From: Haloarcula hispanica ATCC 33960
GTDB taxonomy: Archaea > Halobacteriota > Halobacteria > Halobacteriales > Haloarculaceae
Assembly (NCBI RefSeq): GCF_000223905.1
Contig: NC_015948.1
Span: 2,046,001 to 2,110,000, forward strand
Reading direction: 5' to 3'
Length of the DNA stretch: 64,000 bases
Part shown: in pieces, positions 446 to 19,639 of the stretch
Position numbering within the stretch: the first letter of the stretch is position 1
How the letters are laid out: each line of letters opens with the position of its first letter
The notes under the pieces: generated by a model
Told to the model about the DNA's origin: nothing
The model's input: only the letters and a program-made list of their open reading frames with translations
Databases searched by the model: none
Made by a program: the position numbers and the translations under genes

Positions 446-1807
446 ATGAACCAGCCAAATATTTTGCTCGTTTCCCTGGATAGTCTTCGGCCAGATCATC
501 TCTCTATATACGGGCACTCTCGAACTACATCACCCAATCTTCAGCAACTGTTGACGCAGGATCAGACAACCCTCTTTAAGAACGCATACGCAACAACGAC
601 TTGGACATTGCCGTCACATGCTTCCGTGTTCACCGGACGTGAACCAGCAGAACACGGAATCTTCGACAAAGGTACAAAAATTGATCCAAGCCAGACCCTT
701 CCCCAGATATTAAGCAGAGAGGGATATCAGACAGCAGCGTTTATAAATAATGGTTGGCTTACTCAGGCAGGTATCACAGATGGATTTGACTCAAGATTTG
801 ACATCTTTGAGATGGAAATGCCCTCTAACCGAATCACAAAACAATTGAATCGGTTGAAAATAGTGCTTTCACTGAAAGATAATGGAGCACAAACTACTAT
901 AAACCAGTTCATAAACTGGAGGGACTCAACTGATAGCTGGTTTTCTTTCTTGCACTTCAATGAGCCACATTACCTATACAATCCTCCGCGATCCTATCAA
1001 AATACATACTTAAGTGGCTCTGCGGTTCCGTCCATTCTCAAACAACGGCGTGTGTTCACGAAACAGGGTGATTTCTATGCGGACAACACATCTGTTTCTG
1101 AGTCTGAGATGAATACATTCACCGACCTATATGATGGCGAAATACGTTACATAGATGATCAGTTGGGGAGATTATTTGAATATCTAAAGGAAACTGGAGG
1201 GTGGGAGAACACACTCCTTATCGTGTTCGCTGACCATGGCGAGTTGTTTGGTGAACGTGGGCTTGTTGGCCATCACTTCTGTCTCGACAACGCATTGTTG
1301 CATGTCCCTTTAATAATCAAATGGCCGACCGCCAGTGGTTCCCATCCTTCTGTAAATGAATCAGTGGTCAGCCTGAAGCATATATTCGGCACAGTTCTTG
1401 AAGCAATTGGGTGCGATCATCCACGATCAAATGCACTCCAACAGTACGACCAAGAATCAGAGAGAGACACTTGTGTATTCGCTGACTACCGAACCCCCAC
1501 CTCTCTACTAAATCAATATCAAGAACAGGTCTCAGAATTTGACTTCTCAGAATATGACGTATCGTTGCAAGCAGTACAGACTCAGGACTACAAGCTAATA
1601 GCAGATGGAGACGATGAGCTACTCTACGAAATCACCGGAGCAAACCAAGAAGAAAAGATTCCAAAGGAAGGCAACGAAGAAATATATATCCGTCTCCAAG
1701 AGAAGTTGGACAACCGATCTCAAAATCTCTCCCTTATGGATCAAGAAGAGCAGAAGGATCTGAACCCGAATGTGAGGGATAACCTAGAGAAGATGGGGTA
1801 TTTATAA
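446..1807 (+). CDS. Sulfatase / alkaline-phosphatase superfamily enzyme
   Basis: A 453-residue sulfatase-fold protein. The N-terminus reads NILLVSLDSLRPDHLSIYGH, the first metal-binding strand of the family. Residues around 50-65 (TTTWTLPSHASVFTGREP) hold the nucleophile region, where Thr/Ser replaces the classical Cys-x-Pro-x-Arg, so formylglycine activation is not obvious. A second metal site is VFADHGELFGERG near residue 270. No signal peptide is visible. Relatives in polysaccharide loci act on sulfate or phosphate esters, including phosphoglycerol-type transfers. In this setting it could add or remove a charged group on the glycan. It is followed directly by a glycosyltransferase whose ATG touches its stop codon. 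Confidence 0.85.
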   Translation: MNQPNILLVSLDSLRPDHLSIYGHSRTTSPNLQQLLTQDQTTLFKNAYATTTWTLPSHASVFTGREPAEHGIFDKGTKIDPSQTLPQILSREGYQTAAFINNGWLTQAGITDGFDSRFDIFEMEMPSNRITKQLNRLKIVLSLKDNGAQTTINQFINWRDSTDSWFSFLHFNEPHYLYNPPRSYQNTYLSGSAVPSILKQRRVFTKQGDFYADNTSVSESEMNTFTDLYDGEIRYIDDQLGRLFEYLKETGGWENTLLIVFADHGELFGERGLVGHHFCLDNALLHVPLIIKWPTASGSHPSVNESVVSLKHIFGTVLEAIGCDHPRSNALQQYDQESERDTCVFADYRTPTSLLNQYQEQVSEFDFSEYDVSLQAVQTQDYKLIADGDDELLYEITGANQEEKIPKEGNEEIYIRLQEKLDNRSQNLSLMDQEEQKDLNPNVRDNLEKMGYL

Positions 1808-2831: not shown

Positions 2832-4019
2832 ATGAACCGATGGAAGTCCGTCGGATTCGTGCTTATTCTGGTTGGAAGTCTGAGCACCTACACGGTATTC
2901 TTTCAGGGGACGTTTTTGCCGACGGTTCTTGTCCTCGGCTCCTGTGGTCTCTTTGTAGCATCATATCTTCTCACTGACGAGGACAGCGTGGTACGCATCC
3001 CCCGATACTTACTCGGGCCCGGGATCATGCTATTCGGGGCATACGTTCTCACAATACCATTTCGACCCACAGTGCTCTACCGACCGCTCATTGATCTTAT
3101 AATAATAACGGTTAGTATGTTATTGATACCACAGACGATAGACCGGTCAATCTTTTTCGTTACAGTACGAAACTTGTCAACAGTATTGGTACTTATTGGG
3201 CTCCCAGCGGTGTTTGTAGGTCCGTACTCACTCCTCGGAACTACGATTGGATATCCGTGGCAAGTGGAGCCACCGATCCTCTCAGGACAGTTATACCCGC
3301 TTGAGTCGATATACACGAATCCGAACTTCCTGAGCGTCTTCGTCCTCGGTGGGATGCTGGTTTCACTGTATATATACGATATCGACCGGGGCAACTACTC
3401 GCTTTTCGCGCTCTTTGTAAACGGGGCCGGTCTGTTGCTCATACAGAGTCGTTCGGTTATCGTTGTCGGAACCGTCGCTGCTCTCGGATATGTATCCTAC
3501 AAAATATTGAGAACACCATTATTTCGTCTGGCAGTTCTCGGGGGTACTCTTCTCGGGATAGAGAGCCTAATTCTCATTGTGACTGGCGTAGGACCACTTT
3601 CGCAGCTCAGTCTCTCAGGCAGACGCGATATCTGGCAGGCAGGTATTAGAGTGCTACTAGAGAACCCCCTTATTGGATATGGTCAAGTGCCGTTGGGACC
3701 TATAATTGAGACGGAATTAGGACGATCGGTGTCTCCACATAATTCCTATCTCCGAGTGACTCTGGAAACTGGTATTATCGGAGGTATTGCTTATGTTTGG
3801 CTGGTTGCCTCAATTCTGTTTCACCATTTGCGTGTTCCACTTGACCGGGAGCAGGCCATCACCTTCTTGTTAGCCCTTTCAGTAGCAATAGTCATGATTT
3901 TCGAGACATTCGTTATTGGAGGAATCGGATCAAGTTCAATCCTTGCTTCCATAGCCCTTGGATATCTTCTAAAAGATAATAGTGGTTATAATAACATCAA
4001 TAGCGAGGAGAGTGACTAA
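2832..4019 (+). CDS. O-antigen ligase / Wzy-like polytopic membrane protein
   Basis: A 395-residue protein made almost entirely of hydrophobic helices (about ten to twelve segments) with a large external loop before the last third. The stretch SGRRDIWQAGIRVLLENPLIGYG followed by SPHNSYLRVTLETGIIGG is the hallmark of the Wzy/O-antigen ligase/WaaL superfamily, where the HN pair lies in the catalytic external loop. In a Wzx/Wzy-type pathway it would polymerise or transfer lipid-linked glycan on the outer face of the membrane. It is separated by 91 bp from the GT2 gene and is the last gene before the insertion-sequence cluster. Confidence 0.85.
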   Translation: MNRWKSVGFVLILVGSLSTYTVFFQGTFLPTVLVLGSCGLFVASYLLTDEDSVVRIPRYLLGPGIMLFGAYVLTIPFRPTVLYRPLIDLIIITVSMLLIPQTIDRSIFFVTVRNLSTVLVLIGLPAVFVGPYSLLGTTIGYPWQVEPPILSGQLYPLESIYTNPNFLSVFVLGGMLVSLYIYDIDRGNYSLFALFVNGAGLLLIQSRSVIVVGTVAALGYVSYKILRTPLFRLAVLGGTLLGIESLILIVTGVGPLSQLSLSGRRDIWQAGIRVLLENPLIGYGQVPLGPIIETELGRSVSPHNSYLRVTLETGIIGGIAYVWLVASILFHHLRVPLDREQAITFLLALSVAIVMIFETFVIGGIGSSSILASIALGYLLKDNSGYNNINSEESD

Positions 4020-4102: not shown

Positions 4103-4986
4103 TCATAGCGCTGTTTCAAGGATGGTTTTGAGCGCTTCGTCGCCGGGTTTTCGGCGGACGCGTTTTCGAAGCTGTAACGCTCTGAGATAGGGTGTGAGTT
4201 TGTCTTTGGAGACACCTCGATGAGGCGAGAACCACCGTCGCGCCGGCGACGCGTGGCTCTCGCACGTGTTGACGTGCACGTCTCCATCAGCGTATTCACC
4301 CTCTCCGTGGACGACGTACTGGCGGTCGAATGCGTCGTCCTCGTCGAGTGGCTCGTGTGCTCGAAAGCCGTCAGTATAGACTGTCAGCGACTCCTCTTTG
4401 CGGTCGTCAAGCAGGAGTCGAATCGTTGACTCACCGGCGGCTTTCGCCGGATGAACGTACGTTTCTCCCGTGCCGCGGTCAGCGAGGATGAACACGGGCG
4501 GCTTGTCTTCGTAATAGGTTCCACAACCGCGCGTGGACAGGCCACGCGAGCGCGACCAGCCGTCGCGCTCGCGGCCCTTCTTCCCTGCGTTGACGTACAG
4601 CTCGTCGATTTCGACTGGCCCTTCGAGTTGTGGCCGAGGCGCGTCCAGCGCCCGCAGGAAGCGCTGAACGCGCCGGTAGACCGTCTTGTACGAAACGGCG
4701 ATTCTGCATCGAGTTGCCGAATACTCGTGTTCAGCCGGATATACGTGTAGACGGCGAGATACCACTTCCTGAGCGGTATCGTTGAATGTTCGAAGACCGT
4801 GCCGGTCTTGTCGTTGAACGTCCGGCCGCAATCCTTACACAGATACCGTTGAAGCACCCGATAGCTGCCGTACCGAATCGCTGATTCGGTACGGCAGCGC
4901 GGGCAATAGACGCCGTCACGCCAACGAATCTGTGCCAACAGATTCGCGGCCCGACACTCCGAGACGAACGTCTTGAGTGGAATCAT
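4103..4986 (-). pseudogene. IS1595-family (ISH4-type) transposase with a single frameshift
   Basis: Two overlapping frames together give a complete ISO1595-type transposase. The first frame (start ATG, MIPLKTF) has an N-terminal zinc ribbon (CPRCRTES and CKDCGRTF). The second carries the catalytic core: EIDELYVNAGKKG, the DGFRAH segment and NTCESHAS with the third acidic residue, ending in SPHRGVSKDKL. The switch lies at 4701-4704, where one T appears to be missing on the plus strand; restoring it joins LDAE directly to IAVSYKTVYRR. Programmed frameshifting is not the usual mode of this family, so this is most simply a dead copy. An upstream in-frame ATG at 5007 is also possible. Confidence 0.85.
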
Positions 4987-5039
4987 GCTCAGTACCTCAC
5001 AAAGCATCGCCAGTTAACCTGAGCTGAATCACCTGTTCT

Positions 5040-8946: not shown

Positions 8947-10137
8947 TTAATAATGATTAATTGCTTTTTTGAACACGGATTTTAATTTGTCGGCTTCGTG
9001 TTCAACATTAAATTTTTGCGCCACTTTTTCCCGCCCTGCTTCACCAAACCGGTGTTGTTTTTCCGAATCGGACAGGATTGACGAGATCGCTTCTGCTAAT
9101 CCATCGGTGTTCTTCGGTTCCACTACCAAACCATTTTGTTGATGGTCAATTAGTTCAGGAATACCCGAGACATTCGTCGAAATCGGTGGTGTCTGCATCG
9201 CCATCGATTCCATCAGTGCAACAGGGATACCGTCTCGATCACCCGATTCGGCTACGATACACGGAAGAAGAAAACAAGAAGCCTTGTCAAATTCAGTAAC
9301 TAACCTCTCGTCACTAACATTGCCTAACAGTTTCACGGTATCATTCAGGTTGTGATTATTAATCTGCATACTAAGCTCGTCTTCCATTTCGCCTGAACCA
9401 ACAATATGATACTCAAGATCAGGGAATTGATCGATCACCTTCGATACCGCCTCAATAGCGTAGGGTAGTCCTTTCTTTTCTACGAATCGAGAGACGGTGA
9501 GAATGCGCATATCGGCTATCAAAGAGCTTGGTTCGAATTTTTTCGGGCGTATTCCAGCGTGTACAACATTAATCGGCGAGATGTCCGTGATTTCACTTTC
9601 AATATAGTTCTTGTTGTACTCCGAAATCGTTACGACATGATCCACCTTACTGATGATGTGTTCTAACTGCTTCCTGTTGGGGTTGTCGTACAGATCTGCT
9701 GCGTGAGCGGTTACAGTAAAGGGAACATCGTAATATGATGCAACGTACCGTCCTGGGAACCTCTCCAAAGAAGCAGAATGACCGTGTACCAGATCAATAT
9801 CGAGATTCTGCTCTCCTACGAACTCAATACACTGTTTACTTCGGTGAAAAGCTACAGCGTGTCGCTTCGGAGAAGCCTTGAATACGGCGTTTTGTAGAAC
9901 ACGCGGATGAATAACCTTGGATGACACCAAATCAATTACGTCAATATAACTCGGAGCATCGGCATAGCGTACTGGAACATCAAGTTCCTCGTATTCCTCG
10001 TGTTCAATATCCTCATCCGGGTTGTTTAACGCGAAAACTACGACATTATGACCTCTGTTTTCGAGCTCGTAGATTTCGTTCAGTACGAAACTCTCAGATA
10101 ATTTCGGGAAACTTCCCAAGTAGTAGAGTATGTTCAT
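8947..10137 (-). CDS. Glycosyltransferase family 4, WcaL/AmsK-like
   Basis: A 396-residue GT-B enzyme. The start NILYYLGSFPKLSESFVLNE is the characteristic N-terminus of the colanic-acid/amylovoran-type glycosyltransferases. The donor half has LTVSRFVEKKGLPYAIEAV and the glycine-rich ALMESMAMQTPPISTNVSGI. An upstream ATG (10152) would add five residues; the chosen ATG begins exactly at the conserved strand. It is the last gene of a minus-strand operon headed by another GT4, with two toroid-fold glycan enzymes between. It probably adds a sugar to the same glycan that those enzymes act on. Confidence 0.9.
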   Translation of the reverse strand: MNILYYLGSFPKLSESFVLNEIYELENRGHNVVVFALNNPDEDIEHEEYEELDVPVRYADAPSYIDVIDLVSSKVIHPRVLQNAVFKASPKRHAVAFHRSKQCIEFVGEQNLDIDLVHGHSASLERFPGRYVASYYDVPFTVTAHAADLYDNPNRKQLEHIISKVDHVVTISEYNKNYIESEITDISPINVVHAGIRPKKFEPSSLIADMRILTVSRFVEKKGLPYAIEAVSKVIDQFPDLEYHIVGSGEMEDELSMQINNHNLNDTVKLLGNVSDERLVTEFDKASCFLLPCIVAESGDRDGIPVALMESMAMQTPPISTNVSGIPELIDHQQNGLVVEPKNTDGLAEAISSILSDSEKQHRFGEAGREKVAQKFNVEHEADKLKSVFKKAINHY

Positions 10138-10210
10138 CAGTTGTGGCAACAAAACGAGTCTCTGTAATTCTTGTCATCGAAATCAATACCGTTTTTAGTG
10201 CACATTTCAT

Positions 10211-11941
10211 CTATCCTACGGCAGTAAGATAGCCGTTTTTTGCTAATATGTAGTAGGCGTTTCCGTAGAGAAAGGCCGTCGTTGTATTTCGATTGCCGAC
10301 GATAGTACCCTCTATATTCCAGGCTCTAATCCCGCCATATCCTCCCCTGTCACTGTAATGCTGCGCATCTTCACACCACTGTATAGCAGTCCTGACTGTG
10401 GGGAGAAATGTTGCATCATCTAAAACCTTTTCTGCACGAAGCAGTTCGTAGGCCAATAGCGGTGTAGCTTTGTTGTCCTCGCCGTTGTGACTATTATCTG
10501 TTGCGTAGAGCCACGATCCGTTATCGCACTGACGATCAACTACCCACATGGCTACCTCCTCAATTATGTCCCGTAATTGATCGTTATGTAATAGCTGATA
10601 GGCGCTGATCAGACCGTCAAGTGCCCATCCCTGTCCTCGGGTATACGACGAACGGTCGTCCTCGCCGTCGGCGTACCACGTCTTTTTAAACGAACCGTTC
10701 CCATCGTAGAGATTATCCACGAACCATTTAACGAACCGCTCACACGCGTCCCGCCATCGCTCCTCGCCATCAATCTCGTAGAGGCGATAGAACAGATCAG
10801 TAGTAAATCCCGCATCGACGTACAGCCAAGAGAAGTCCCACTCATTTGAACGGCCGATGCCTAGCTGACCGTTTGACCGCATCCCTTCGTCGAGTATCCA
10901 GGCTGCTACGTCTTTGGCGCCATCCAGATATCGTGATTCGCCAGTCACTCGGTAGAGGGGAAGCAACCCGTTGGCAGCGATGAACGCCGAATCGTTCGGT
11001 GCTTCCCACTTCTGGATTCCAGTCGGCGAGTTTCTGGGAAAATCCCATCGGACGGTGAAGGCGCCGTTGTCGTGCTGCAGTTGCAAGAGTTTTTTGCCGC
11101 AACGTATGGCGCTTTTTCTGTACGCGGAACGGCTCGTCCGGTCCCACTCCGACACGAGGGCCCTGATTGCAAGCCCGGAACACCAGATCCAGGAACTCAA
11201 CATATATCGGTTCGAGTGATAGTCGTAACATCCGTGAAACGTGTCCTGGAACTGACTGCCTTTTTTCTCGTTTTGCGAGTCGAGAATGAACTGCACCGCT
11301 GCTTCTCTATTCCCTAGTGGTAGAGTTTCGTCTGTGTGTCCTACGTGATGTTCACGTCTTGTCCGTGAGTGATCATTTGTTTCGAATGGATTTCCGGACG
11401 AAACGACGTACTGGCCGGGCCCAAAATTTACGTTCTCGATTGACGAACCTAACGCGAGCCAGAGATCCGATTCGAATGTCGAACGGCAGGTAACGACGTT
11501 CTCACCGGGCTCACAGACATCTATATCTACTCGTTTCCAGCGCTTTCCAGCGTCAAACCCGATCCGATTTCCGTTCAAGTAAACGTGGTCGGTTCCATCA
11601 TCGACACCGATTACTGCAAATTTTGCATCAGAAAATACTGGGGGCAGATGACATAACTGACAACGCCAGTCCTCGTCCGTGGTAGATCTGGAGGGGAACA
11701 TTCCCCCGAGGTGATCTCTGAATCTTCCGGCCACATAGCTCATTACGTGACGGAATGGTACTGATTTCGCTGGACGATTCCCTCCCCACCTCACCGATAG
11801 TTCGGTCCGGACTGGATCTAGAGTGACTCCGACCGCACCACCTGTTATCTCCCCTGCACCTGGCTGAGAAACTGGTGCGGCTGAGACGTAAGCTGTTGGC
11901 TTATCTTCTTGACCGGTCTTCATCGTTTGTAGTGTTATCAT
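10211..11941 (-). CDS. GH88-like six-hairpin glycosidase with N-terminal beta domain
   Basis: A 576-residue two-part protein. Residues about 100-170 (GVDDGTDHVYLNGNRIGFDA) look like a galactose-binding jelly-roll module. Residues about 215-576 form repeated helical hairpins of an (alpha/alpha)6 barrel. NDSAFIAANGLLPLYRVTGE and SYTRGQGWALDGLISAYQLL match the catalytic-Asp hairpin and the RGQ-W hairpin of unsaturated glucuronyl hydrolases (GH88) and relatives; DNKATPLLAYELL gives another candidate acid. No signal peptide is seen, so it may act in the cytoplasm or need another export route. Its start overlaps the preceding lyase-like gene by 41 bp (ATG at 11923 would shorten this). N-acylglucosamine epimerase-like folds are an alternative. 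Confidence 0.6.
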   Translation of the reverse strand: MITLQTMKTGQEDKPTAYVSAAPVSQPGAGEITGGAVGVTLDPVRTELSVRWGGNRPAKSVPFRHVMSYVAGRFRDHLGGMFPSRSTTDEDWRCQLCHLPPVFSDAKFAVIGVDDGTDHVYLNGNRIGFDAGKRWKRVDIDVCEPGENVVTCRSTFESDLWLALGSSIENVNFGPGQYVVSSGNPFETNDHSRTRREHHVGHTDETLPLGNREAAVQFILDSQNEKKGSQFQDTFHGCYDYHSNRYMLSSWIWCSGLAIRALVSEWDRTSRSAYRKSAIRCGKKLLQLQHDNGAFTVRWDFPRNSPTGIQKWEAPNDSAFIAANGLLPLYRVTGESRYLDGAKDVAAWILDEGMRSNGQLGIGRSNEWDFSWLYVDAGFTTDLFYRLYEIDGEERWRDACERFVKWFVDNLYDGNGSFKKTWYADGEDDRSSYTRGQGWALDGLISAYQLLHNDQLRDIIEEVAMWVVDRQCDNGSWLYATDNSHNGEDNKATPLLAYELLRAEKVLDDATFLPTVRTAIQWCEDAQHYSDRGGYGGIRAWNIEGTIVGNRNTTTAFLYGNAYYILAKNGYLTAVG

Positions 11942-13559
11942 CGGTTCTGAAAACGATTCTTATCTCTAATTCACATCTTCCGGTCGCTCCGAGTGTTGAT
12001 TCGACGCGGTAGGTGGTTCCAGATCCGAGAACCGTATCGACGCGTTCGGTTGACAAGGACACTCCCTCGACACTACAGATACTACACGTCTCTGGGAGTG
12101 AATACGTCATCTGTACGGTGATGTCCTCGGTTTCAGCGGTGCTCGCCGCAACTTCATCATGAAGCGTGATTTCAGTACAATCGAACGTAAAGCGACGATT
12201 CCAGTCGAAGTTTCCGGCCCTGGTCGAGATTTGCTTGCTCCCAACGAGTCGATTCCCGGAATACTGATCGATGGTCCCCGTCGTTCGAACGCTGTCCCAA
12301 AGGCGTGTATCGTTTTGATGTATCCAGAGTACGTGGCCCGAAGATTCGATACTGCCAGAAGGCCCCGGGGGTAGGGAACACAACTCACCTGATACGTCTA
12401 GCATCGCAAGACTGAGGGCAGCGTCGTAGTTCCCTCCTCTCCCGTTCGAAACGACAGCTGAATACCGTTCCTGGTCCACCGAGAACAATCCGCCTCGTTC
12501 TCGGAAGAAAGCACGGGCCTGTTTCGATTCCCCTTTAGCTGTCCAGTCTGTACTCTTGAGGAGCGAAAGGGAGCGCGCGAGCCACGCACTACAATGAGCG
12601 TTGTAGACACTGTGGTACGCATACTGAGCCTGACACTCGATACGTTCGTCGTACGCTTTGCGATTGGCGACTACCGGTAATCGCCCGTCAGGTCGCTGAA
12701 AGTCTGTGATTTGCTCTATGATCGGGCGGGCAACGGTCAGGTAGGATGTGTCCTCCGTCTCTATCGCTGCCGCTAGAAGAACGTAAAATGACACACCGTA
12801 TGTAAAGATGTGGCCGGCGGATCGTCCACGGTAGGTCGGATGCCCATTTTTCGGGAGATAAGGGAGAAGGACTCGGACGCTCCGGAGGAAGATTCGCCTG
12901 ACGAGGCTGTTATCCGTGTAGTAGTAGTACCGATGGAGTAATGCTGCTGTGTACATGTGATAGGCGAGTGGAACGTACGGTGGATCGACGTGCTCGAAAT
13001 CGTACGCATCGAAACTATCGGTGAACAGTCCGTCGAATTGCCAATAGCCTAGCATTTGAATAAACTCTCGAAATGCGTGTCGTCGGAACCGCCCGCTTCC
13101 CGTCACATTATAAACAAGGCGGTCTAGTAAAACATTCATCGCGTGCCAGTTACAGTTAGAGGGATTGTCTCGGGTGTCCCAGCGGTGCACGACATCGCGC
13201 CACTTAGACAATTGAGTCCTCGAACCGAACTGTTTGGCTTTCAACAGGGCTTCAATGAAACCGAGTCGGCGATGCTGATAGTGTTCTGCGTGAGTTCCTC
13301 GAGGATATCCAGCGCTGGTTCGCGCGTGAAAGTTCATGGCTCGCTCGAAATGCTCGTCGTAGTCGGGGAGTAGACCCCGGGAGCGAAGTACTGCGAGCGC
13401 GAGTGCGAACTCTTCGGTCGCGTAGTTGTCTCCCACGACCCGTCCGAGGATGTGGTCTTCGATCCCACCTGAATCAGGTCCAGTCTCTATTTGATACTCG
13501 GCAAGCCACTCGACATTCTCCGACACCAGCGAAAGTACCTCGCTCTCAAGACTGTTCAT
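11901..13559 (-). CDS. Heparinase II/III-like toroid-fold protein (putative polysaccharide lyase)
   Basis: A 552-residue protein. The first about 340 residues are helical hairpins typical of an (alpha/alpha) toroid, with conserved-looking aromatic/His stretches such as SNCNWHAMNVLLDRLVYN and ECQAQYAYHSVYNAHCSAWL that could supply the Tyr/His pair of a lyase. The last about 200 residues are beta-rich (GGLFSVDQERYSAVVSNGRG onward), as in the sandwich domain of heparinase II/III and PL8-like enzymes. No signal peptide is visible. Its ATG overlaps the end of the upstream GT4 gene by 14 bp, and its 3' end overlaps the GH88-like gene. Fold call is moderate; lyase activity is inference. Confidence 0.55.
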   Translation of the reverse strand: MNSLESEVLSLVSENVEWLAEYQIETGPDSGGIEDHILGRVVGDNYATEEFALALAVLRSRGLLPDYDEHFERAMNFHARTSAGYPRGTHAEHYQHRRLGFIEALLKAKQFGSRTQLSKWRDVVHRWDTRDNPSNCNWHAMNVLLDRLVYNVTGSGRFRRHAFREFIQMLGYWQFDGLFTDSFDAYDFEHVDPPYVPLAYHMYTAALLHRYYYYTDNSLVRRIFLRSVRVLLPYLPKNGHPTYRGRSAGHIFTYGVSFYVLLAAAIETEDTSYLTVARPIIEQITDFQRPDGRLPVVANRKAYDERIECQAQYAYHSVYNAHCSAWLARSLSLLKSTDWTAKGESKQARAFFRERGGLFSVDQERYSAVVSNGRGGNYDAALSLAMLDVSGELCSLPPGPSGSIESSGHVLWIHQNDTRLWDSVRTTGTIDQYSGNRLVGSKQISTRAGNFDWNRRFTFDCTEITLHDEVAASTAETEDITVQMTYSLPETCSICSVEGVSLSTERVDTVLGSGTTYRVESTLGATGRCELEIRIVFRTDDNTTNDEDRSRR

Positions 13560-14742
13560 TTATCCCCGATTTATAAACGTTTAAGATTCGTTGTGCATTT
13601 TGGGTCCAGGTGTATTCGTCGAGGATTCTTTCACGTGCTCGTCGTCCGGTTTTATCGAGCTCGTTCGGCTGATTTCGTGACAGGTTGAGCACATCGCGGA
13701 CCTCCTCGACCAGTGCGTCAACCGCGCCCGATGGAATCAGATATCCATTCTCGCCATCGTCGATGATGCGTTCTATCTGACCGATCGCCGAACATATCGT
13801 CGGGAGCGCCATACTCATGTACTCGAAGAGTTTCACCGGTGAATAGTAGAAAAACGATAGATCGGGGTACGGAGCGACGGCGACGTCCATAGAGGAAAGA
13901 TACCCTGGTATCTCCGAGTGTGGAACTGAACCCGGAAGCTCGAAGAAGTCGTCTAGACCGGACTGAGATATTTCTTTCTGGAGATCTTCGTATAGTGGTC
14001 CTGACCCCACAAGCAGAAATCGGATACTGTCACGCAAATCTGACAACTGCTTCCCAGCCTGAACAAGGTTGGAAACGCCGTGCCAGTCTTTGAAACTTCC
14101 GACAAAACCGATAGTGAACCGATCGTCAGGGGTCCTCGCAGGTGTATCCGGGTTGAACTGGTCCGGATTCACTCCGTTCGGGACTACTGTAATCTTCTCT
14201 TCGTCCACGTATTTACTGAAATAGTCTTTGAGTTCTCGTGAGACTGCGAGAATCTTGGTCGCATCTTGGCACGCCTCTCTCTCGGCTCGCTCGGCCACCC
14301 TCGGTCTCTGGAGCCCTCCCCCGTACTCGTTCGCCTCGTATATGAGCGGTGAGTTTACTTCGAGTACGAATGGAATATTCCGGTTTCTCGCGAAACGCGC
14401 TCCCTTGTAGCTATACAGACTGTATCGTTCGTGTATCACATCGATGTCGTCGGGAATCCGTCGAAGAGCAAAAGATAATTCAAAATTCTTCGCGATGGAT
14501 TCCAGGTCGAAGACCTTGTTTAGATAACCGTGAGCCAACGGTGTTGTCGGCAGTTGCACTTCCTTGGCAGGTATCGAATTCTGTCCTGATTGCCCGGTTC
14601 CAGGACGATAGAGGACTAGTGGCTCCACGCCGCAATTTGAGAGCGAAGTGATGTACTCTCTGATATGAATTGAACTTCCGGCTGATCCGTATAGGGGGAT
14701 GCCCCCATCGTTGCAAACATAGGCGACCCGTGAGACGGTCAT
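13546..14742 (-). CDS. Glycosyltransferase family 4 (GT-B), operon head
   Basis: A 398-residue GT4 enzyme beginning TVSRVAYVCNDGGIPLYGSAGSSIH, with an acceptor-side glycine loop; the donor domain has FTIGFVGSFKDWHGVSNLVQ and YYSPVKLFEYMSMALPTICS. The frame is open another 186 bp upstream. A minus-strand TATA box (agtataaacc, 14774-14783) lies about 30 bp before this ATG, which decides for the short, near-leaderless start. It heads a four-gene operon with the lyase-like and GH88-like genes and a second GT4. Sugar specificity cannot be read. Confidence 0.88.
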   Translation of the reverse strand: MTVSRVAYVCNDGGIPLYGSAGSSIHIREYITSLSNCGVEPLVLYRPGTGQSGQNSIPAKEVQLPTTPLAHGYLNKVFDLESIAKNFELSFALRRIPDDIDVIHERYSLYSYKGARFARNRNIPFVLEVNSPLIYEANEYGGGLQRPRVAERAEREACQDATKILAVSRELKDYFSKYVDEEKITVVPNGVNPDQFNPDTPARTPDDRFTIGFVGSFKDWHGVSNLVQAGKQLSDLRDSIRFLLVGSGPLYEDLQKEISQSGLDDFFELPGSVPHSEIPGYLSSMDVAVAPYPDLSFFYYSPVKLFEYMSMALPTICSAIGQIERIIDDGENGYLIPSGAVDALVEEVRDVLNLSRNQPNELDKTGRRARERILDEYTWTQNAQRILNVYKSGINEQS

Positions 14743-14773
14743 CTGTATCGAATATGAAATGGGCATAAAAAAG

Positions 14774-14783
14774 GGTTTATACT
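14774..14783 (-). promoter_or_regulatory. TATA box of the GT4/toroid-enzyme operon
   Basis: On the minus strand the bases read agtataaacc, a good archaeal TATA element. It is spaced so that transcription would begin about 10 bp before the GT4 ATG. Confidence 0.55.
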
Positions 14784-15293
14784 CACCTGAGAGGACGGAT
14801 GTCAGCCTTAGCGTAAAGGAAAACAGGGGGCGAACGTTCTGGTGGGTGTTCAGTGGATGCTTGACCGCGTGGTGGAGCAAACACGCGGGCAAGAAATGTA
14901 TTCGCGGGAGGACACGCCGACCAAACAACGCGTCGCAGCGGCTTTTCTATACCATACTGGACTCTTATACCGCTACATGGTACAGGTAGTATGGTGTTAG
15001 GAGAGTGATACGGTAGGGTTCGAGTGCAAGACGGATCTTGAGTACAAGCTGCTGGGGCGGGCTTCGAGCCGATAGTACAATCTCACTCCACGAACCGATT
15101 TCAGGGAGATATTCTTGGGTGAGATAAGAGAACGGATGTCAACAAAGATTGGGTGCTCTTGAACAGCGTTGCGACTGCCTCTCTCAGCGGGTCAGCACCA
15201 ATAGATAGTAACTGGCGAGAGGGAGACTTCGTCGAAGAAACATATAATTCCATATATACATATTATATATCTTAACCAGGCGCTTTTCGCAAA
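14784..15293. other. About 510-bp intergenic stretch without a convincing gene
   Basis: It lies between the GT4 operon promoter and the 3' end of the methyltransferase gene. The only plus-strand open frame has a composition unlike haloarchaeal proteins. The right end (15241-15275) is a run of alternating A/T tracts (tatataattccatatata and similar) next to the methyltransferase stop, plausibly a transcription-termination or DNA-bending region. No terminal repeats or transposase motifs were seen. Confidence 0.4.
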
Positions 15294-16133
15294 TCAAAAC
15301 CTAACAATACCGATACCTAATTTATTCCGTGATGACTTCTCCGTTGATGGAATCACGATTTCTTGAGTCTGATAGTCGTCTTTGATTTCGTCCCAAAATC
15401 CCTGTACATCTAGCCACTCTGATGAAATATCGTGGAGTGCAATTATCCCGTCCTCAGCCATCAGGTCTCGATACAGCTCGAAATCGGTTTTGACTCCCTC
15501 GTAACTATGATCGCCGTCGATAAATAAGAAATCAATATCTTGTCCACTAAGAATCTCTATGAGTTCTTGTTTTGTGGATTCAGAGTGTGAGTCTCCGCGA
15601 ATAAATGCCGTGTCCGTGTCTGGATCCATTTCATGGAAAAAATGCGGACCAGGACCGATACTGCGTGGGTCATTTTCGGGCAGGTCGATGCTGACAACTT
15701 GAGCATTGAGATGCCGACACCAGATGTAAAAACTACCTCCACGTGCCGTCCCGATCTCAACGACTGTCTCCGGATCTCGCCGTGCTACGATTTCCGACAA
15801 CTCTCGGAGTTCAGCGGGGATTTGCATCGGTCGGATCGACGTAAATGATCCAAATCCCGAGTACCGGTAGACTGTGGTTAAATAGTCGGCCAGGGTTGTT
15901 TCGGTTTGCTGATGACGACGGAGAGCACGCAAAGAGAGGTCTAATGAGGTTTCTGTTGGTAACAGAGGGCCTACCCGTGCCCTCAGCTCGTGACTGAGCA
16001 AAAGCGGTAGCCCACCACGAACCTGATATCCTCTATATTTACGTTGAATATTCGGGGTTAGTTGCTGTCGTCCACAACGTATTGTTTCAGCAACCCCACG
16101 GGTACGGATTGATCGGATTGCGTTTCTAATCAT
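15294..16133 (-). CDS. Class I SAM-dependent methyltransferase (methyltransferase_24/CmcI-like)
   Basis: A 279-residue protein with a variable N-terminal 115 residues. It is followed by a Rossmann methyltransferase core: ETVVEIGTARGGSFYIWC is the SAM-binding motif I, AQVVSIDLPE the acidic end of beta-2, and DIDFLFIDGDHSYEGVKTDF the motif-IV/metal region typical of CmcI and methyltransferase_24 proteins. These often modify sugars in polysaccharide clusters. It is transcribed alone, facing the same way as the GT4 operon, and divergently from the flippase gene. Substrate unknown; glycan O-methylation is the contextual guess. Confidence 0.8.
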   Translation of the reverse strand: MIRNAIRSIRTRGVAETIRCGRQQLTPNIQRKYRGYQVRGGLPLLLSHELRARVGPLLPTETSLDLSLRALRRHQQTETTLADYLTTVYRYSGFGSFTSIRPMQIPAELRELSEIVARRDPETVVEIGTARGGSFYIWCRHLNAQVVSIDLPENDPRSIGPGPHFFHEMDPDTDTAFIRGDSHSESTKQELIEILSGQDIDFLFIDGDHSYEGVKTDFELYRDLMAEDGIIALHDISSEWLDVQGFWDEIKDDYQTQEIVIPSTEKSSRNKLGIGIVRF

Positions 16134-16388: not shown

Positions 16389-17858
16389 ATGGAGAACAGT
16401 GACTCTGATTCAGAACTGAAATCGAAGATCTTCCAGAGTACTTTCTGGGTGAGCGTCCTCAATTACGGTGAACGAGGACTGTCCGTAGTCAAACTCGTAG
16501 TACTCGCCAACTTCCTCACGCCACGAGACTTCGGCATCGTTGGTATCGCACTATTGGTCACTGGATCGCTCCAGCGAATATCGAACTTCGGATTTCACCA
16601 AGCTCTTATTCAGCGGCAGGAGGATATCGAACCGTATCTCGATACTGCATGGACAGTCCGGCTCCTCCGTGGCGTCGCGCTTTTCCTCATCGTTCTCGTG
16701 ATTGCTCCATTCGTTGCTACCTTCTTCGAAGAACCGAGAGCCGAGATAGTCACTGTCGTACTGGGCGTCTCGGTCCTTCTCACGGGATTGACCAATATTG
16801 GCGTCGTCTATTTCAAGAAGGATCTCGAGTACAAACGGTTCGTACTCTACAACACCGGGGGATCGTTCGTCGATTTTTCCCTGGCCGTCATCCTTGCCGT
16901 GACACTAGGGAACGTTTGGGCACTCGTGTACGGATACATTGCTGGAAACGTCGTTAGGATGGTTCTCAGCCATCTGGTTCATCCCTACAATCCATCTCTG
17001 AACCTCGATATGGAGAAACTACGTGAACTATTCGATTTCGGGAAATGGATATTAGCCGACTCGGCCGTCAATCTTGTCAACACCCAGGCTGATGACATTA
17101 TCGTAGGCCGAATGTTTACCATTGGAGCACTTGGGTATTATCAGATGGCCTATCGGATCGCCAATCTCCCGGTGACAGAGGTGTCTCACGTCGTCTCTTC
17201 AGTTGCATTACCTACCTACTCAAAACTCCAGAATCGCCCCGAAGAACTCCGCCAGGGATTTCGGAAAGTCGTTGACTATACGACGGTACTCACGTTCCCG
17301 ATTGCGGGGGGCATATTTGTCATCGCCCCAGAATTTGTCTCGCTGGTGCTCGGTTCCGATTGGACACCGATAATCCCGCTAATGAGAGCGCTCTGTGTAC
17401 TTGCCGCCGTCCGTTCTATCGTTGCGAACTTCGGTAGCCTCTACCAGGCGTCTGACAATCCTGACATTATGTTTCGGCTGGCTGCCATTTTCACGGCGAC
17501 AAAATATATTTCTATGCTGTCAATACTAGCGTTCTGGATCGACGAACTGCTCGTCGTCCCGCTTGTCATCGGATTCAATGCGTTGATCAGTCTCCCAGTC
17601 CATTTATTCATTGTTTATAAAATAACGGGAATCAGGATTTCTTCAATCGTTCGAACGATGGGCACCCAGATGCTGGCAACCACTTTAATGGTAGCGGGCG
17701 TCTATGCAGTTAAAACACAGGGCGTTGGTGGGGACTCGTACCTCAAACTCATATCGTTGATACTCCTCGGGATATTATTCTACACTATGGTCATTTTAGC
17801 AATTGATAAAGACAAACTCTACAAGATCCGGGAAGACATCGTCGAAGCGAAAGCGTGA
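16389..17858 (+). CDS. Wzx-like flippase, MOP superfamily polysaccharide exporter
   Basis: A 489-residue polytopic protein with about 12-14 hydrophobic helices. The N-terminal segment (SKIFQSTFWVSVLNYGERGL) followed by LANFLTPRDFGIVGIALLV is characteristic of the Wzx/RfbX and capsule-exporter branch of the MOP superfamily. The middle has FDFGKWILADSAVNLVNTQA and DDIIVGRMFTIGALGYYQMA, a strongly conserved motif of this branch. It would flip lipid-linked glycan units across the membrane, supplying the Wzy/ligase-like protein at the other end of the island. GC is close to the core genes, unlike the 6.5-8.7 kb genes. Confidence 0.92.
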   Translation: MENSDSDSELKSKIFQSTFWVSVLNYGERGLSVVKLVVLANFLTPRDFGIVGIALLVTGSLQRISNFGFHQALIQRQEDIEPYLDTAWTVRLLRGVALFLIVLVIAPFVATFFEEPRAEIVTVVLGVSVLLTGLTNIGVVYFKKDLEYKRFVLYNTGGSFVDFSLAVILAVTLGNVWALVYGYIAGNVVRMVLSHLVHPYNPSLNLDMEKLRELFDFGKWILADSAVNLVNTQADDIIVGRMFTIGALGYYQMAYRIANLPVTEVSHVVSSVALPTYSKLQNRPEELRQGFRKVVDYTTVLTFPIAGGIFVIAPEFVSLVLGSDWTPIIPLMRALCVLAAVRSIVANFGSLYQASDNPDIMFRLAAIFTATKYISMLSILAFWIDELLVVPLVIGFNALISLPVHLFIVYKITGIRISSIVRTMGTQMLATTLMVAGVYAVKTQGVGGDSYLKLISLILLGILFYTMVILAIDKDKLYKIREDIVEAKA

Positions 17859-18188: not shown

Positions 18189-19639
18189 GTGATCATAGTG
18201 GATTGGGATGACCTCAGCAAAGACGAACTTCTCTCGCGGTTTCTCCAGATGGAAAAGCGAACCGACGAGCTGGAGAAGAAGCTTGAGCAGGAGGACGAAC
18301 GAATCGAAGAGCAGCAGGAACGGATTGAGGAACTCGAAACACGGCTTCGCAAATACGAGAATCCACATACCCCGCCGAGTAAGCAACGGTCGGGGACTGA
18401 CGAGTCCCCGACCTCGCAAGATGACAAAGACGACGATGTCAGAACTGACGGCGGTACTCCCGGACGAAAAGACGGTCACGACCCGGAGTGGCGCTCTACA
18501 GCTGATCCGGACGAACAAGTTGAGGTCACCTGTGACTGCTGTCCAGAGTGTGGCCAACACTTCGACGAGTCGGTGGGCGTCAGCCCCCGACTCGTCGAGG
18601 AGATACCGGACCCGCAACCACCAGAAATCACACAGTACAACCGCCACTGCTACCAGTGCGACTCCTGTGGAACCGAGACAGTTGCTACACACCCCACCCC
18701 GACTGCCCCAGTGAGGGGCAGTTCGGGGTGAACGTTATTGCCCAATCAGCACTGTCGAGGTACGATTACCGCCTGCCCTACCGGAAGATTGCAGACCGTT
18801 TCGAGCAGTTGCACGGACTGGAGTTATCAGGCGCAGCCACTTGGCACGCGACCGAGAGCGCTGCGCGCGCCGGTCGCTGTGAATATGAGCAGATCCGCCG
18901 CCAGATCCAGCAGGCTGACGTTGTTCACATCGATGAAACAGGCATCAAGCGGAATGGTGAGCAAGCATGGATCTGGACGTTCACCACCGAGAATCATACG
19001 CTCTACGCGGTTAGAAAAAGTCGCGGAAGTGATGTTCCCGCAGAAGTCCTCGGCGAGGACTTCGCGGGAACGATCATCTGCGATGGGTGGACGGCCTATC
19101 CACCCTTCAGCGACAATCTCCAGCGGTGTTGGGCTCATATTCTGCGAGAGGCTGAAGATGCCGCTGAGATGCAACCTGAAGGCAAACCGATCTACGACTC
19201 TCTCAAGCAGTTGTACGTCGCTCTCCAGACGCGGCTGGAGAGCGACTTGACCATTCGTGAGCGAGCAGAGCTCCAGCGTGTTGCACGGAGAGTGCTTGAA
19301 TCGTTGATTGAGCGGTCAGTTCCCGATGGACCATTGGCAACACTCATCAGAAAGGTCGAAGGTGGCCTCGACCACTGGCTCACCTTCGTCGGTGAGCCAG
19401 CGGTCTCTCCGGCGAACAATGCCGCGGAAAACGCGCTCCGTGAGCCGGTGGTTCTCCGGAAACTTATCGGAACACTCCGCAATGACCGCGGGATGTTCAT
19501 TCATGAGACGGTGCTGTCCCTGCTGGCGACGTGGCGCCAGCAGGGACGCAATCCCTACGACAAACTCAAGCGAGTTTCCCGAAGCAACGAGATTATTTCA
19601 CGAGATCAGGCTGTGCCGGCCGTTGAGACCTCGGGGTAA
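18189..19639 (+). pseudogene. IS66-family transposase broken by a 5-bp tandem duplication
   Basis: The first frame (GTG start) has a leucine-zipper-like coiled coil, a HTPPSKQRSG linker and a zinc-finger segment (CDCCPECGQHF, CYQCDSCG). The second frame holds the catalytic core: VHIDETGIKRNGEQAW, TIICDGWTAYPPF and SPANNAAENALREPVVLRK. The frames are separated by accccacccc at 18691-18700; removing one accc c unit restores ATHPDCPSEGQFGVNV exactly. Family TnpA/TnpB helper genes of bacterial IS66 are absent, as in haloarchaeal members. The protein as it stands would end after about 180 residues. Confidence 0.88.

Follow-up and report, generated by a model that had tools for sequence, protein, structure and literature searches.

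A candidate GH154-like uronate dehydratase gene overlaps a GH88/GH105-type gene in a glycan-assembly operon of Haloarcula hispanica

The window analyzed here, a 64,000-nucleotide stretch of the Haloarcula hispanica ATCC 33960 genome (G000:C3:2046001-2110000), contains a run of four minus-strand genes in which two family 4 glycosyltransferase (GT4) genes enclose the genes for two proteins that we call TOR and GH88L (Table 1). The open reading frames of the outer genes, GT4a and GT4b, extend over 8947-10152 and 13546-14928, with ATG starts at 10137 (likely) and 14742, and those of the inner genes over 10211-11941 (GH88L) and 11901-13559 (TOR). An earlier note on this DNA had described the four genes as overlapping or adjoining, had assigned the outer two to GT4, and had placed them in a glycan-synthesis setting with Wzx/Wzy-like genes. 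The coordinates agree with the first description (GH88L and TOR overlap by 41 nt, TOR and GT4b by 14 nt, and 58-73 nt separate GH88L from the last gene, GT4a), and Pfam matches confirmed the other two, as the surrounding genes encode a sulfatase, a GT2 enzyme, a Wzy_C-type protein, further glycosyltransferases, a methyltransferase, and a Wzx-type flippase. The GC content at third codon positions is 0.45-0.57 in the four operon genes versus 0.83 in secY, and the operon sits in an acquired, low-GC surface-glycan assembly island. IS1595 and IS66 transposase genes (4103-5007 and 18189-19639), each apparently split over two frames, flank the operon. The aglB gene of the same genome lies near 1.135 Mb, outside the island.

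Table 1. Genes of the operon and its surroundings, with the residues of TOR and GH88L that align with active sites (positions are those of the window)
Feature	Position	Strand	Basis or remark
Sulfatase-superfamily protein	446..1807	+	Pfam Sulfatase 162 bits; same island
Wzy_C-type polymerase/ligase	2832..4019	+	Pfam Wzy_C 46 bits
GT4a, family 4 glycosyltransferase, last gene of the operon	8947..10137	-	Pfam Glycos_transf_1 139 bits
GH88L, GH88/GH105-type toroid, 576 aa	10211..11941	-	Toroid at about residues 240-576; N-terminal extension 1-235
GH88L D376	10814..10816	-	(V/I/L)D column common to GH105 relatives (same 17-toroid alignment as D317)
GH88L D317	10991..10993	-	Column of first GH88/GH105 Asp (alignment with 17 haloarchaeal toroids)
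TOR, 552-aa orphan, candidate GH154/DUF2264-like uronate dehydratase	11901..13559	-	Active-site pattern common with DUF2264/GH154
TOR residues 245-250, GRSAGH	12810..12827	-	Aligns with BcGDH GRSVTY (R285, Y289)
TOR Y195 to H201	12957..12977	-	Aligns with BcGDH Y229 (proposed base) to H235
TOR residues 135-138, NCNW	13146..13157	-	Aligns with BcGDH N176-N177-W178 region
GT4b, family 4 glycosyltransferase, 398 aa, first gene of the operon	13546..14742	-	Pfam Glyco_trans_1_4 89 bits, Glycos_transf_1 85 bits
Sugar O-methyltransferase-like protein	15294..16133	-	Pfam Methyltransf_24 and RMNT_CmcI
Wzx-type flippase	16389..17858	+	Pfam Polysacc_synt_3 274 bits

H. hispanica makes a GlcA-rich sulfated exopolysaccharide (EPS) (PMC9943897, PMC5467301), with a GlcA:Man:Gal:Glc composition of 4:3.6:1.5:1 (PMC9943897). 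A published primer, exact over 34 bases, places HAH_1662 of the EPS cluster at G000:C3:1604212. Since this position is ~450 kb from the island, the EPS cluster published for H. hispanica is a different one.

The GH88-like call made for one of the inner proteins held up, as GH88L matches Pfam Glyco_hydro_88 over 280 residues with 53.5 bits, above the curated cut-off of 26.6, and reaches 97.7% with a GH105 set in hhalign. Both Asp columns are kept in GH88L, and the column of D317 reads D, E, or N among its relatives; from knowledge of the GH88/GH105 families, we take the D317 and D376 columns to be catalytic. Judged by these sequence features, GH88L is a genuine GH88/GH105-type toroid. Profile and database searches with its N-terminal 235 residues gave no match to anything. 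GH88L matches were found in 19 of 145 genomes, its own included, and involved the toroid part only, at 23-29% identity apart from the match to itself; no close relatives were present among the 145 genomes scanned. As previously noted, neither GH88L nor TOR appears to have a signal peptide, since a hydropathy scan (as distinct from a signal-peptide predictor) detected no N-terminal hydrophobic segment and neither protein has a twin-Arg motif.

TOR returned no match in Pfam, NCBIfam, PHROGs, or the PDB. No relatives of TOR were found in overlapping sets of 145 relatives, 391 class, and 393 phylum genomes, or in collections of genome contigs, viral contigs, plasmids, and phages. Degenerate-pattern scans with four artificial alignments (A1-A4), whose extra rows are invented TOR variants that serve as search patterns and not as evidence, found nothing. 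Weak matches at the phylum level look like chance, and the two that were read out (L028 and L029) are aspartyl-tRNA synthetase-like. An apparent similarity of TOR to GH88 in hhalign (30%) was obtained with a set that had included GH88L, and it was lost with cleaner sets and controls. The single-sequence AlphaFold model of TOR had a pLDDT of 37.7, too low for use, and a fold search on it was uninformative; the corresponding model of GH88L was likewise unusable.

TOR had earlier been called a heparinase-like toroid, a name that these searches did not sustain, as there was no library or PDB match, neither Hepar_II_III_N nor Hepar_II_III_C matched TOR, and the heparinase profile (2.7% in hhalign) performed no better than a SecY control (3.35%). 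We consider it quite unlikely that TOR belongs, as a far-diverged member, to the heparinase II/III-type polysaccharide lyases and controls chain length together with GH88L. The position of TOR after GT4b is the one that heparinase genes, which were found in 22 of 60 genomes, occupy at 15 of the 21 haloarchaeal loci examined, where a GT4 gene is directly upstream, and the heparinase profile finds a short PDGRLP segment in TOR (single-target E = 0.0023). Besides the hhalign values, the shuffle-corrected alignment score argues against a heparinase, with TOR ranking 32nd of 280 genes against heparinase and 6th against DUF2264, and GT4b is just ~23-30% identical to the heparinase-linked GT4 enzymes.

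At one locus, L064, a heparinase II/III gene is directly followed by that of a second alpha-toroid (the two at L064:15753-18703, G015:C1), with a UDP-sugar dehydrogenase and a sulfatase gene upstream; this second toroid has weak GH127, GH88, and C5-epim_C matches, and the locus lies in a glycan synthesis cluster. A GT4-heparinase pair (L089:9296-12527, G000:C2) is present on a 406-kb replicon of the same genome as the operon, with a GH105 gene ~22 kb away, and a toroid protein that ends in a formyltransferase-like domain (L066:6141-8105, G010:C1) is encoded ~0.1 kb from a Wzx gene.

The similarity of TOR to DUF2264 (PF10022) extends over several blocks in pairwise alignments. The NW, G.F.D, Y.....H, and GRS motifs of DUF2264 are present in TOR in the same order and spacing, and the length from NW to GRS is 111 in TOR versus 103-113 in DUF2264 proteins. 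The spaced pattern was found in 6/6 DUF2264 proteins and in TOR, in none other among 5004 ORFs, and in shuffled TOR sequences its strict form occurred in 0 of 20,000 and its loose form in 2; as the pattern was defined post hoc, once the similarity had been seen, these counts are support and not a P-value. That TOR is an unrelated orphan that matches the motif by chance, as might be argued from the lack of any significant profile match wherever it was searched, is the least probable of the alternatives that we weighed, given that a multi-block pattern so spaced is unique to TOR among these ORFs outside DUF2264.

In a PDB search, DUF2264 proteins matched the BcGDH structures 9o4u and 9nwf (E ~1e-19 to 1e-18) as well as 8oi4, with E values of 1e-21 to 1e-18 over all three. 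Because the proteins at L108-L114 match solved GH154 glucuronate dehydratases, a likely function can be assigned to DUF2264, and on this match an initial PL8-like reading of the TOR motif was replaced by GH154. GH154 enzymes are beta-D-glucuronate dehydratases, and BcGDH dehydrates saturated terminal GlcA for removal by GH88; Ala mutants of its N177, W178, Y229, and R285 are inactive (PMC12269599). When TOR was added to a GH154 alignment by unguided MAFFT, the NW, DG..xD, Tyr, and GRS columns lined up, and the His that follows the Tyr was shifted by one residue. Y195 of TOR was placed by this addition, and H201 by spacing and pairwise alignment. Four of the five BcGDH residues N177, W178, Y229, R285, and Y289 are kept in TOR, in order and at similar spacing, and the fifth, the proposed catalytic acid Tyr289, is replaced by His250. 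Haloarchaeal DUF2264 proteins L109 and L111 read CNW, as does TOR. TOR lacks clear counterparts of BcGDH R78 and Y354, the PF10022 profile matched nothing in the window's own genome, TOR included, the GH154 profile gave TOR an E value of 0.011 for a single target, which is not significant, and profile-profile comparison of TOR by hhalign was no better than controls. We regard TOR as a divergent GH154-like candidate and not as a member of the family, and it is from the motif that we infer its role, fold, and activity.

The earlier note had named a lack of joint conservation of the four genes as a refutation of its reading, and the four were indeed not found together in other haloarchaeal species, where only GT4a has clear orthologues (24 of 241 other genomes, 39-55% identity). 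None of these 24 genomes encodes a TOR relative beside the GT4a orthologue, and GT4b had no match at E<=1e-40 among 139 other genomes. Near two of the GT4a orthologues lies a gene for a toroid of 377 aa that matches only GH88, and weakly (L228:11964-13097 and L231:7151-8443). At L228, Pfam confirmed AglB within a shared 20-kb region, which also encodes a pyruvyltransferase and GT61, and this toroid is possibly an Agl32-type epimerase. No toroid genes were found near 40 aglB genes.

DSepi1 is a lyase-fold epimerase, and TOR and/or GH88L could be C5-epimerases or other non-cleaving uronate modifiers of the glycan, like DSepi1 or Agl32. Agl32, which belongs to N-glycan clusters of haloarchaea, is a GlcA C5-epimerase with a single alpha-helical domain (PMC13308652). 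Abstraction of the C5 proton is a step common to lyases and epimerases, and this, like the AglB-cluster toroid near a GT4a orthologue, with its near-identical layout in L231, speaks for such a role. We nevertheless judge this unlikely for the pair studied here, as hydrolases are the nearest kin of GH88L, which retains both Asp residues of GH88, and TOR has no detectable similarity to the AglB-cluster toroids.

The earlier note had proposed a uronate-processing pair, a lyase and a hydrolase, built into a synthesis operon. The GH88 half of this proposal is solid, and the lyase half has given way to a motif that points to a GH154/DUF2264 dehydratase and not to a PL8/12/21 heparinase. Our preferred explanation, held tentatively and at somewhat less than even confidence, is that a dehydratase and an exo-uronyl hydrolase edit a terminal uronate during glycan assembly. 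Chain extension of a lipid-linked glycan in the cytoplasm would be the work of the two GT4 enzymes, TOR would take the C5 proton from the terminal uronate of this glycan, and a GH154-like dehydration would yield a 4,5-unsaturated uronate. GH88L would next hydrate and remove this unsaturated uronate, such that the two proteins together would trim or edit the terminal uronate on the intermediate before the Wzx flippase exports it. What we infer in this scheme is which substrate the two proteins use, that it is lipid-linked, and that TOR and GH88L act as editors.

Genes for GH154 commonly co-localize with those for GH88/GH105, and BcGDH feeds GH88 (PMC12269599). The TOR/GH88L pair, whose genes overlap by 41 nt, would fit such dehydratase-hydrolase chemistry. 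No GH88/GH105 gene was found within ~10 kb of seven haloarchaeal DUF2264 genes, so the GH154-GH88 pairing is not universal. Islands of Haloarcula that degrade glycosaminoglycans contain both GH88 and GH154 (PMC13260240), a co-occurrence that, along with the IS remnants in the region, would suit a catabolic uronate-salvage pair present in the glycan island by chance. We hold this to be a little less probable than a diverged heparinase, as no transporter, secreted lyase, or uronate catabolism gene is among the neighbors, the annotated neighbors are glycan assembly genes, and the TOR and GH88L genes overlap each other and a GT4 gene. One argument against editing in the cytoplasm comes from the EPS of H. 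hispanica, for which DolP-GlcA is the known GlcA donor (PMC9943897); with this donor, GlcA may be added outside the cell.

The pairing of a dehydratase with an exo-uronyl hydrolase is reported so far from polysaccharide digestion. It is doubtful, though worth stating, that such digestion-type enzymes were recruited here to take a terminal uronate off lipid-linked glycans in the cytoplasm while these are being synthesized, TOR being the founder of a divergent GH154 branch. If the editing explanation is true, a chemistry of digestion would have become a step of maturation in biosynthesis. Toroids with kinship to lyases and uronyl hydrolases are found repeatedly in the glycan assembly clusters of archaea, and gene-deletion methods together with the known GlcA-rich EPS make their role there testable in H. 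hispanica by single-gene deletion.

Among known systems, BcGDH of Bacteroides caccae PUL25 (PMC12269599) resembles TOR in the order and spacing of N, W, Y, and R and in having a GH88-type toroid partner; unlike BcGDH, TOR is not matched by PF10022, carries His in place of Tyr289, and is encoded in a synthesis operon without catabolic genes. GH88L resembles GH88/GH105 unsaturated uronyl hydrolases in its Pfam match and Asp columns, but differs from known ones in its extra N-terminal part, its ~25% identity to haloarchaeal GH105 proteins, and its synthesis setting. In haloarchaeal glycan clusters with heparinase II/III beside GT4, a putative uronate-active protein directly follows a GT4, as TOR does, although neither TOR nor GT4b is closely related in sequence to those two proteins. 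The cluster of Agl32, the D-glucuronyl C5-epimerase of Hbt. salinarum, similarly places a helical uronate enzyme in haloarchaeal glycan assembly, whereas the island described here has no aglB. Finally, the H. hispanica EPS cluster, HAH_1661-1667, shares with the island its species, glycosyltransferase genes, an arylsulfatase/sulfatase, and a polysaccharide biosynthesis protein, but it occupies a separate position and no toroid genes are reported there.
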